DNA of 38,651 nucleotides, taken from assembly GCA_016936555.1 (NCBI GenBank), contig JAFGXR010000125.1:1-38651 (forward strand). Reading direction: 5' to 3'. The notes under the pieces are model-generated. The model saw nothing but the letters and a program-made list of their open reading frames with translations. It made no database searches and was not told where the DNA came from. Below are positions 19,551-23,038 of this stretch, piece by piece; positions within the stretch are counted from its first letter, which is position 1, and every line of letters begins with the position of its first letter. The position numbers were made by a program, and so were the translations under genes. Source of the DNA: Spirochaetales bacterium (GTDB lineage Bacteria > Spirochaetota > Spirochaetia > DSM-2461).

Positions 19551-21494
19551 TCAACGCCATGAATCATTTCGAACCTGTTTGACGACCTCTTCGAATCGGT
19601 AATTATGCAGAATTTCCTCAACTCTGCCGGCGAGACTCTTTCCGTCGAGTCCGCACATTCTGATGAGCTCCTCCCGGGTCGCCTGACCGAGGAATTCATC
19701 GGGGGCTCCCAGATACCGGAAATGAAAATTCCTATCATGTTCCAGCATGGCGGCGGCAATTTTCTCTCCCAGGCCGCCTGTTTTTACACCGTCTTCTACA
19801 AATACTGTCAGGTTATAATTACTAACTAAATCCAGAAGATAATCAATATCCAACGGCGCAATAAATCTCATATTGTAGACATCGCAGGAGATACCCTTCT
19901 TTTCCAGAAGCCCGGCACAGGTCTCCGCTTCCGTCAGCAGAGAGCCGAGACTGATCAGCAGTGTTTTGTTCTCCCGGCCTTCTCCCTTAGACAGGAAAAC
20001 ACCTCTACCGCTTTCAAAGGGCGCCGAAAGGGCTGCGCATTCAGGATAGCAGCTCTCCTTGGCATAGCGGATCATGAAGGGTCCCCGGCTCTTCAGAGCC
20101 AGTTCAACAGCCATCTCCATCTCCGACTGGTTGACCGGAGCGACAAAGGTCATCCCCGGAACATTTTTAAAGAGGGAAATATCGTAGATTCCCTGATGGG
20201 TTTCACCATCACCGGGGACCAGTCCCGCCCGGTCCATGACGATAGTTACGGGAAGATGCGGTATGGCCACATCGTGAATCACCTGATCGACCGCCCTCTG
20301 CATAAATGTGGAATAGATAGAAATAAAGGGCTTTCTTCCCGCAACAGCCAGCCCGGCGGCATAGGTAATTCCATGGGGTTCCGTTATTCCCACATCAAAG
20401 AATCTGTCCGGATATGTCTCGGAGAACTCCTTGAGTCCCGTTCCCGAAGTCATAGCCGCCGTTAAGGCTACAACATTTTTATCTCTTTCTGCTGCTTTGA
20501 CTATAGTCTGTCCGTACGCCTCGGTCAGTTTCTGCGCTGAAGGACTGTCGTCTTTCTCCGATTCATCAGCTTTTTCGGGAGCTTTAGGAGAGACGCCGTG
20601 ATATCCAGCGGGATTCTCCTCCGCATCGGTCAAACCCTTCCCTTTTGTAGTCGCCACATGAATGACCAGCGGCTGATTAACCTCTTTGGCCACTTCGAAA
20701 ACCTTTTCCATTCTTTCGATATTATGACCATCGATGGGACCGATATATTTGAATCCCAGGTCAGTAAAAAGATTTTCCTTGAAAAATATGCTTTTAGCGC
20801 CCCGTTTCAACCGGTATACGAACCTCAAAGTCGCTTTGCCGAAAAAAGGGATGGTGCTTATGGCTCTGTCGATAAAGCGGCGCATATTGATATAGGAACC
20901 GGTCGATGTCATCCGGCTCATATAAGATGAAATGGCGCCGACATTATTCCCGATGGACATATTGTTGTCATTGAGAATAATAATGAGATTCTTCCCCAGA
21001 TGCCCCGCGTAGTTGAGTGCTTCGAGAGCCTGGCCTCCCGTAAGAGATCCGTCTCCGATCACAGCGATGGCCCGGCCTCTGAAACCGGCCAGCTGCTCGC
21101 CGACGAGTACACCCAGCGCCGCCGAAACGGAAGTGGATGCATGTCCCGTGTTCATAATATCGTGGGGACTCTCCTCCCGCTTGGGAAAACCGCTCATGCC
21201 GTTCAACTGCCTCAGGGTCCTGAATTCCTCAAACCGTCCGGTCAGGAGTTTGTGGGTATAGCACTGATGCCCGACATCCCAGATGATTTTATCGACGGGC
21301 GAATTAAACGACCTGTGCAGGGCTATGGTCAGTTCAACCGCACCCAGGTTGGACGCCATATGGCCGCCGTTACGGTGAACCGTTTCTATTATATATTCCC
21401 GGATTTCTCCTGAGAGAATCTTCAGCTCTTCGGAGGACAGGCTCTTTAAAGCCGCCGGATTATTCATTCCGGGAAGAATGGAAAATTCAGACAT
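19551..21494 (-). CDS. dxs: 1-deoxy-D-xylulose-5-phosphate synthase
   Basis: Dxs makes DXP from pyruvate and glyceraldehyde 3-phosphate using thiamine diphosphate, the first step of the MEP isoprenoid pathway. In the 647 residues can be seen DVGHQCYTHKLLTGR, the cofactor motif GDGSLTGG (147-154) with LNDNNMSIG, GPIDGHN, DVGITEPHGITYAAG with the catalytic Glu, and DRAGLVPGDGETHQG. The pyrimidine-domain and C-terminal transketolase domains are complete. AGAGG stands 5 bases before the ATG. It lies 75 bases upstream of the helicase and downstream of a terminator, so it probably has its own promoter within 21495-21553, where a TTATAT-like -10 can be seen but no convincing -35. Confidence 0.97.
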   Translation of the reverse strand: MSEFSILPGMNNPAALKSLSSEELKILSGEIREYIIETVHRNGGHMASNLGAVELTIALHRSFNSPVDKIIWDVGHQCYTHKLLTGRFEEFRTLRQLNGMSGFPKREESPHDIMNTGHASTSVSAALGVLVGEQLAGFRGRAIAVIGDGSLTGGQALEALNYAGHLGKNLIIILNDNNMSIGNNVGAISSYMSRMTSTGSYINMRRFIDRAISTIPFFGKATLRFVYRLKRGAKSIFFKENLFTDLGFKYIGPIDGHNIERMEKVFEVAKEVNQPLVIHVATTKGKGLTDAEENPAGYHGVSPKAPEKADESEKDDSPSAQKLTEAYGQTIVKAAERDKNVVALTAAMTSGTGLKEFSETYPDRFFDVGITEPHGITYAAGLAVAGRKPFISIYSTFMQRAVDQVIHDVAIPHLPVTIVMDRAGLVPGDGETHQGIYDISLFKNVPGMTFVAPVNQSEMEMAVELALKSRGPFMIRYAKESCYPECAALSAPFESGRGVFLSKGEGRENKTLLISLGSLLTEAETCAGLLEKKGISCDVYNMRFIAPLDIDYLLDLVSNYNLTVFVEDGVKTGGLGEKIAAAMLEHDRNFHFRYLGAPDEFLGQATREELIRMCGLDGKSLAGRVEEILHNYRFEEVVKQVRNDSWR

Positions 21495-21553
21495 TAAAAC
21501 CTCTACAAGTGCAATATAACATAAAAAAGCCCGGAACCATAAGGCGAAGCCGG

Positions 21554-21586
21554 AAAAAAAATACCCCGGAACGATACCGGGGTATT
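21554..21586 (-). terminator. Rho-independent terminator upstream of dxs
   Basis: A perfect 10-base stem AATACCCCGG/CCGGGGTATT (21560-21569 with 21577-21586) and a 7-base loop are followed on the minus strand by an eight-T tract (A run 21554-21561). It ends transcripts coming from the small ribosomal-protein-like gene and rpoZ-miaA. Confidence 0.92.
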
Positions 21587-21592
21587 ACTACC

Positions 21593-21653
21593 GGAAACCT
21601 GCCATCAGAAAGCCTATGCATCGGACCTTTCTCAAAAGTAATAAGCGGTTTCC
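21593..21653 (-). other. Candidate structured RNA in the 3' region of the small basic protein gene
   Basis: Nested inverted repeats lie between the small gene and the terminator. The outer arms are GGAAACC (21593-21599) with GGTTTCC (21647-21653). The inner arms are AGAAAG (21607-21612) with CTTTCT (21627-21632), enclosing a palindromic ATGCAT. With the terminator stem just beyond, this could be a 3'-derived small RNA or a stability element. No known RNA family was recognised. Confidence 0.35.
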
Positions 21654-21702
21654 AGCACTACAATCCCCGACATTCCGCGGAGATTTAACAAAGAATAACC
21701 AA

Positions 21703-21721
21703 GCCGCAGAAACTATGCGGC
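21703..21721 (-). terminator. Possible weak terminator after the small basic protein gene
   Basis: On the minus strand GCCGCA and TGCGGC pair around a 7-base loop, starting 10 bases past the stop codon. The following sequence TTGGTTATTCTTTG is T-rich but interrupted, so termination may be partial, letting some transcripts run on to the strong terminator at 21586. Confidence 0.45.
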
Positions 21722-21731
21722 CTGAAAGAAC

Positions 21732-21821
21732 CTATTTATGTTTATGTCTGTTCTTTCTAAGCTTTTTCTTACGTTTGTGCGTAGCTATTTTTTTTCTTTT
21801 TCTTTTTCTACCGCAAGGCAC
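21732..21821 (-). CDS. 29-residue very basic protein, AURKAIP1/COX24-like ribosomal small protein
   Basis: A tiny gene not evident from a length-based search. GTG at 21821 is preceded by a perfect AAAGGAG seven bases away and followed by 29 codons that encode an almost purely Lys/Arg/His protein (begins MPCGRKRKRKK, contains IATHKRKKKLRKNRHK). This resembles the short AURKAIP1/COX24 domain proteins, which include the mycobacterial 30S protein bS22. I recall near-identical short proteins in Bacteroidetes, but could not check this. It has its own consensus promoter 80 bases upstream and a terminator downstream. A ribosome-associated role is likely but not proven. Confidence 0.78.
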   Translation of the reverse strand: MPCGRKRKRKKIATHKRKKKLRKNRHKHK

Positions 21822-21900
21822 GTGCTTACTCCTTTACATATTGGGACCCCGAAAGGGTTAATACAGTTAACTGAAAGTCCTCATTGGGAGAACTTTATAG

Positions 21901-21929
21901 ATTATGCAGAGACTCCCCATATAAGTCAA
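21901..21929 (-). promoter_or_regulatory. Promoter of the small basic protein gene
   Basis: Minus-strand TTGACT (21924-21929), a 17-base spacer and CATAAT (21901-21906) match the sigma-70 consensus at 5/6 positions each. The predicted start leaves a leader of about 70 bases before the GTG at 21821. That leader contains a short ACCC/GGGT stem just upstream of the ribosome site. Confidence 0.7.
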
Positions 21930-21933
21930 GGGT

Positions 21934-22830
21934 TTAGGGGAAAACCTCTCTCATTATTCCCTCTCTGTTCAGCGGGGAAAACCATTTCACCCCCGGCAGA
22001 GATTTAAAAAAGGTGATCTGCCGCTTGGCATATCTCCGGGAATCCTGTTTTATCTTGTCTTTCAGATCCTCCAGAGTCATACATCCCCGGTTCATCATAT
22101 CGAAGAACTCGCTGTAGCCTATTCCTTTCATGGACGGCATATCTGAATCGATTCCTCCGGCGATCAGTCCCTTGACTTCCTCGACAAGACCCTGCTGAAA
22201 CATGATATCCACACGGCGGTCAATCCTCTCATAAAGTTCGGCGCGGTCTCTTTCCAGTCCGATGATTTTCACATCATAGGGAATCCTGCTCCTATGGGAG
22301 ATTTCAAAATGAGAGAGTGGTGTGCCTGTCCCCCTGTAAACCTCCACAGCCCGGACTATGCGGGCACTGTCGTTTCGGTTCAGCCTCCGCGCTGTCGGAG
22401 GATCGCACCGGAGAAGCTCTTCATATATTGAATTGAGCCCGTTTTCTTTTAAAGAACGGCTCAGGGCTTCCCTTATGGAAGGATCTATGGGCGGTATGGG
22501 GGGAAGTCCGTAAAGAAAATTGCGGAAATAAAAAGCCGTACCTCCCGATAAAACCGGCATACGCCCCCGGGAGGTGATTTCCGGGATAAGCCTGTCGGCC
22601 TCCCGCACGAAATCGCCGGTGGTAAACTGTTCGTGAGGGTCTCTCACATCGATTAAATGATGGGGAAGTTTTTCAAGATAAGCCCGGTCGGGCTTGGCGC
22701 TTCCGATGTCCAGCCCCCTGTAGACCTGCATGGAATCAGCGCTGATAACCTCACCCCTGCCTTCAAAAAGCTCAAGCAGGAGATCGGTTTTGCCGACGGC
22801 TGTAGGTCCGAACAGGAGAACGGGAACGGC
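21934..22830 (-). CDS. miaA: tRNA dimethylallyltransferase MiaA, start codon unresolved
   Basis: MiaA adds the isopentenyl group to A37 of tRNAs that read UNN codons. The P-loop GPTAVGKT is encoded at 22786-22809, followed by VISADSMQVYRGLDIGSAKP, HHLIDVRDPHEQFTTGDF, the GGTAFYFRNFLYGLP motif and a C-terminal RYAKRQITFFKSLPGVKWF. The homologous region begins at about AVPVLLFGP (22830). In this frame, however, there is no ATG, GTG or TTG between an in-frame TAA at 22852-22854 and the internal ATG at 22731, which is after the P-loop. A CTG at 22815 is the only near-cognate codon before the P-loop. Either a rare start, a frameshift from rpoZ, or a sequence error applies. The rpoZ stop is at 22832. 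Confidence 0.88.
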   Translation of the reverse strand, partial: AVPVLLFGPTAVGKTDLLLELFEGRGEVISADSMQVYRGLDIGSAKPDRAYLEKLPHHLIDVRDPHEQFTTGDFVREADRLIPEITSRGRMPVLSGGTAFYFRNFLYGLPPIPPIDPSIREALSRSLKENGLNSIYEELLRCDPPTARRLNRNDSARIVRAVEVYRGTGTPLSHFEISHRSRIPYDVKIIGLERDRAELYERIDRRVDIMFQQGLVEEVKGLIAGGIDSDMPSMKGIGYSEFFDMMNRGCMTLEDLKDKIKQDSRRYAKRQITFFKSLPGVKWFSPLNREGIMREVFP

Positions 22831-22831
22831 T

Positions 22832-23038
22832 TCAGCGCTTGAATTCGTATTTTACCTCTTCGGTAACGATTTCGCGGATGGCTTTGGAAATGGTCTTGCC
22901 TTCAGTTTCCTCATTCTCGTTTCCGCCTGTAATAGCGATCTGTTCGGCGCGGTGGATAGCCGCATTGGTAAGCTCGTACATGTTTTTATCTGTATTGACC
23001 AGTCTGTCCATAGGGATGACTCTGCTTTCTTCTGCCAT
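22832..23038 (-). CDS. rpoZ: RNA polymerase subunit omega
   Basis: A 68-residue omega subunit, which aids assembly of the beta' subunit. The core NMYELTNAAIHRAEQIA matches the family's conserved RFELVLVAARRARQLA block, and GKTISKAIREIVTEEVKYE matches the second conserved helix. GAGG lies six bases before the ATG and a consensus promoter overlaps the end of cmk just upstream. The gene ends where miaA homology begins. In many bacteria rpoZ sits beside guanylate kinase and YicC; here the kinase between yicC and rpoZ is a cytidylate-type enzyme. Confidence 0.9.
   Translation of the reverse strand: MAEESRVIPMDRLVNTDKNMYELTNAAIHRAEQIAITGGNENEETEGKTISKAIREIVTEEVKYEFKR

Follow-up and report, generated by a model that had tools for sequence, protein, structure and literature searches.

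The window, the whole 38,651-nucleotide stretch of spirochaete DNA analysed here, carries on its minus strand a Mur ligase gene (murC-like), yicC, cmk, a small open reading frame (ORF) with an RNA polymerase Rpb6/omega domain (68 residues, 22832-23038), miaA, bS22, and dxs, in that order. The upstream neighbour of bS22, miaA, encodes an IPP transferase and spans 21934..22731 (PF01715, E 1.4e-82; the true start may be further upstream), and the downstream neighbour, dxs, spans 19551..21494 (PF13292, E 1.1e-110). An initial annotation had singled out a short ORF between the two, and its frame, coordinates, and strand proved correct: the gene occupies 21732..21821 on the minus strand and consists of a GTG start, 29 codons in all, and a TAG stop. 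With the initiator Met read at GTG, this ORF (21732-21821, minus) encodes the peptide VPCGRKRKRKKIATHKRKKKLRKNRHKHK, in which 17 of the 29 residues are Lys or Arg, as expected of bS22 (about 29 to 33 residues, more than half of them Lys/Arg). The in-frame codons preceding the GTG are TAA AGG AGT AAG CAC. Since the TAA lies five codons upstream with no start codon in between, the frame offers no common start codon other than GTG. A good ribosome-binding site had also been claimed, and indeed AAAGGAG is present 7 nt before the GTG (21829..21835, minus); it is identical in four aligned members of the genus, save for the first A in one of them.

We then searched for known relatives of the peptide. 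A phmmer search against the PDB at E up to 1 returned three sequences only: 8fmw_V, the bS22 protein of the Borrelia burgdorferi ribosome (E 8.1e-9), 7jil_5, the bS22 protein of Flavobacterium johnsoniae (E 1.2e-6), and 9i5v_10, named as an AURKAIP1/COX24 domain-containing protein (E 1.7e-6). Counted from the alignment, 24 of 27 aligned residues are identical between the window protein and B. burgdorferi bS22. A profile built from 13 rows recovered the same chains more strongly (3.6e-14, 1.7e-13, and 1.6e-12, respectively) and, at E up to 10, nothing beyond those three and no actinobacterial chain. Judged by sequence, the peptide is thus homologous to a structurally proven bS22, and its nearest solved relatives are the Borrelia and Bacteroidota proteins. 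The convincing bS22 copies in the window's own genome number one; a second, weak match on contig C24 (E 0.48), which shows 44% identity and falls within a frame of 150 codons, was treated as chance.

Family libraries were of little help. No model in Pfam or NCBIfam recognises the window protein, Pfam giving 0 families at E up to 1, and COX24_C (PF08213, curated cut-off of 23 bits) likewise left it unmatched at E up to 1. When we ran COX24_C on three bS22 controls at E up to 10, two gave no match and one scored 11.7 bits. COX24_C thus also misses bS22 chains of solved ribosomes, and by the bS22 controls the family libraries tested are nearly blind to bS22. The gene is, as suggested, a short one of the kind missed by annotation: Pfam and NCBIfam lack a matching model, and B. 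burgdorferi bS22 was likewise unannotated before 2023. The initial annotation had further likened the peptide to AURKAIP1/COX24 domain proteins such as mycobacterial bS22. The bS22 identity stood; the match to Pfam COX24_C and the actinobacterial sequence match did not. Because no such chain appears at E up to 10, the mycobacterial comparison holds for the binding site, through published structures, and not by sequence. Every Rfam match over 21400-22100 fell below its gathering score.

The stretch is short and A/G-rich, and one could argue that it is not a gene at all, only A-rich DNA that reads as Lys/Arg by chance; the promoter scan, taken by itself, is also at chance level (see below). The codon pattern refutes this. 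Across 24 loci of the window's family, 25 of 28 codons vary silently only and 3 vary in amino acid, with variable columns at the first, second, and third codon positions numbering 8, 2, and 27 of 28. Differences from the window copy total 278 that are silent and 11 that alter the amino acid. The silent share is 0.962 (96.2%), whereas 500 simulations of random placement give 0.152 (15.2%) on average and 0.227 (22.7%) at most; these simulations take no account of transition bias or relatedness, but the margin is wide. Furthermore, the frame is kept in 277 of the 297 genomes of the class, and a chance reading has a vanishingly small probability. By codon pattern and conservation this is a genuine protein-coding gene. 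Taken with the homology, 21732-21821 almost certainly encodes bS22, a highly basic 30S-subunit peptide of 29 residues.

A search for homologues in spirochaetes and Bacteroidetes had been proposed as a check, and the gene proved widespread. It is found in 38 of the 41 nearest genomes, in 202 of 206 good-quality genomes of the class (at least 90% complete, at most 5% contamination), and in 251 of 296 phylum genomes, or 208 of 231 in the good-quality subset. The first search left 45 phylum genomes without a match; when these were searched with a profile (E up to 1), 11 gave hits. One of these is convincing (G317, E 8.1e-4), and another (G305, E 0.011) was left undecided by an identity scan; most of the weak profile matches were rejected for stops or partial coverage of the profile. 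Several families outside the class, many of their genomes near-complete, seem to lack bS22 or to hold a form too divergent for these searches to see. A scan of named records gave at least 118 stretches; among the matches listed (80) are Bacteroidota, Ignavibacteria, Spirochaetes, and Treponema, and single or few records from Omnitrophota, Neomarinimicrobiota, WOR-3, and Cloacimonadota. To our knowledge, there is no report of bS22 from Omnitrophota, Neomarinimicrobiota, WOR-3, or Cloacimonadota. Records with these titles (loci L040, L103, L042, L060, and L097) hold a bS22 of the Cys3 type. A record titled as a Streptomyces griseus MAG (L054, 6959-7012 of CALPIT020000020.1) holds a Bacteroidota-like bS22, pointing to a bin that is mislabelled or mixed. 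At another locus (L162, genome G098), bS22 starts with GTG, and some 136 nt lie between its start and that of dxs downstream.

The gene had been credited with a near-consensus promoter of its own. A sigma-70-type sequence, TTGACT-17-CATAAT, lies at 21901..21929 on the minus strand, with 79 nt between its end and the start codon; we identified it by pattern scan and by conservation in the family. It is the sole promoter match in 1601 bases, and shuffled sequences give 1.4, so the single match is not significant alone. The relatives supply the argument. In all 13 family loci that were aligned, TTGAC and CATAAT are unchanged while the spacer diverges. Of the 23 family loci that could be tested, 22 carry a relaxed form of the pattern (TTGACN, 16 to 18 nt, NATAAT, within 250 nt upstream of bS22), and in each of them the spacer is 17 nt (TTGACN-17-NATAAT). 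The relaxed form occurs in 0 of 536 other tiles and in 14 of 4800 shuffled upstream sequences; locus L018, with less than 100 nt of upstream sequence, was left out. By this conservation we regard the predicted bS22 promoter as real, and it is probably active in the window organism. Outside the window's family, the relaxed pattern occurs in 5 of 18 further loci of the spirochaete phylum and in neither of two loci that keep bS22 after miaA, the Borrelia-type L155 and L164. The private promoter therefore belongs to the window's family and some others. In a mixed group of loci with named titles, comprising non-spirochaetes and named spirochaetes, 10 of 116 carry it, a figure on which we base no conclusion.

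The terminator claimed for the gene fared less well. A terminator scan marked five terminator-like sites in the window region, with 1.9 expected from shuffles. A hairpin is indeed present directly 3′ of the stop codon (21699..21725, minus), but it is weak and is kept in only two of four genus members, so it does not qualify as a conserved feature. A second terminator-like hairpin with a longer T run, also found by the scan, lies before dxs (21560..21586, minus).

The proximity of dxs raises another reading, in which the peptide is a leader or attenuator that controls dxs. Among the 35 loci holding bS22 within L001-L036, mostly cut 1.5 kb from the gene, 18 have dxs (at least 54% identity) beside bS22 on the same strand, and 3 more have only weak dxs matches of 23-25%. 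However, L155, which resembles B. burgdorferi, and L164, of the same family, keep bS22 after miaA and no dxs was found nearby, and a Brachyspira-like locus (L156) holds bS22 among other neighbours. In the window itself, both hairpins stand between bS22 and dxs, and bS22 itself is a component seen in the solved ribosomes of Borrelia and Bacteroidota. We consider a dxs leader extremely unlikely. In genome G187, which belongs to the same class as the window genome, the order is murC-like (by eye), yicC, cmk, a small ORF, miaA, and bS22, so that bS22 follows yicC-cmk-small ORF-miaA in both. G187 is very likely B. burgdorferi, because its bS22 begins at C11:867605, the first base published for bb0822 (PMC10618245). 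The small ORF between cmk and miaA in L155 has 66 residues and no Pfam match. This shared order, and the failure to find dxs in L155 and L164, support orthology and speak against a leader role; the position of bS22 is conserved.

The GTG start of bS22 is also conserved. A GTG-start bS22 pattern matches 233 of the 297 class genomes, 277 of which have any protein-search match. As controls, we examined bL36-type genes, with GTG in 4 of 39 matched genomes, and bL34-type genes, with GTG in 4 of 44 and TTG in 6 more; both controls were searched in 98 genomes, missed over half of them, and are to be read as samples. The GTG habit looks particular to bS22, unlike these two types of gene. A GTG start would be expected to temper bS22 synthesis, and together with the private promoter it suggests a controlled dose of the protein. 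One tentative idea, which we hold to be possible and on balance doubtful, is that the GTG is a conserved control element in Spirochaetia that sets the level of bS22 or couples it to the state of translation initiation, acting in the window's family alongside the dedicated promoter.

It had been anticipated that the window would extend bS22 to spirochaetes. This is out of date: Sharma et al. reported in 2023 an unannotated bS22 with a GUG start in the structure of the B. burgdorferi 70S ribosome (PMC10618245). The same authors give 61% Lys/Arg for Borrelia bS22, note that a published transposon library has no insertion in its gene, and anticipate that more bacteria will prove to have bS22 (PMC10618245). 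In the open-licence literature, we found no survey of bS22 across spirochaetes and no paper pairing bS22 with Treponema. New here are the promoter, the conserved GTG start, and the finding that nearly every genome of the class has the gene. The window gene is an ordinary but well-supported addition to a known ribosomal protein family. Within this class of spirochaetes, the gene for a ribosomal protein that cryo-EM revealed in Borrelia is nearly universal; the family models tested miss it, and one short profile could improve its annotation.

The published structure places B. burgdorferi bS22 at h2, h27, h44, h45, and H68 (PMC10618245). By homology, bS22 of the window organism would be a bent helix buried in the 16S rRNA pocket formed by h2/h27/h44/h45 and would reach 23S helix H68 upon subunit joining. 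There it would neutralise phosphates and make the surroundings of the decoding centre and of the subunit interface more rigid; this place and role are proposed by analogy. In the window's family, transcription would run from the sigma-70-type promoter in the miaA-bS22 gap, and translation would start at a GTG codon, though behind a strong ribosome site. Such a ribosomal protein could have an extra role outside the ribosome, for example as an antimicrobial peptide, as proposed for Cutibacterium acnes bS22. The free C. acnes peptide is reported to inhibit bacteria and cell-free translation (PMC10085706). However, high charge alone could account for such in vitro activity, and nothing in the 29 residues of the window peptide looks, by eye, like a signal for export or any other export feature. 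An extra-ribosomal role is very improbable, and we favour a ribosomal protein acting within the 30S subunit.

Among known systems, the bS22 proteins of Mycobacterium smegmatis and C. acnes, mitochondrial mS38, and eukaryotic eL41 occupy the same pocket by published structures (PMC10618245, PMC10085706), and C. acnes bS22 also makes an inter-subunit contact (PMC10085706). In sequence, the profile search (E up to 10) matched none of these. Closer are 7jil_5, from F. johnsoniae, and 9i5v_10: their lengths are within one residue of the window protein and they share the core THKRKK...NRHK, but they have Ser or Asn at position 3, where the window protein has Cys. The Bacteroidota copies among the matches listed start with ATG, mostly without a Shine-Dalgarno-like site, whereas the window gene has GTG and AAAGGAG. 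Closest of all is B. burgdorferi bS22 (bb0822; 8fmw_V), with a near-identical sequence, a GTG start, a place immediately downstream of miaA within the shared gene order, and, until 2023, the same lack of annotation. The difference lies in the junction: at the Borrelia locus L155, bS22 starts 3 nt after the miaA stop with no match to the promoter pattern, whereas in the window a 112-nt gap with a conserved promoter separates the two genes.
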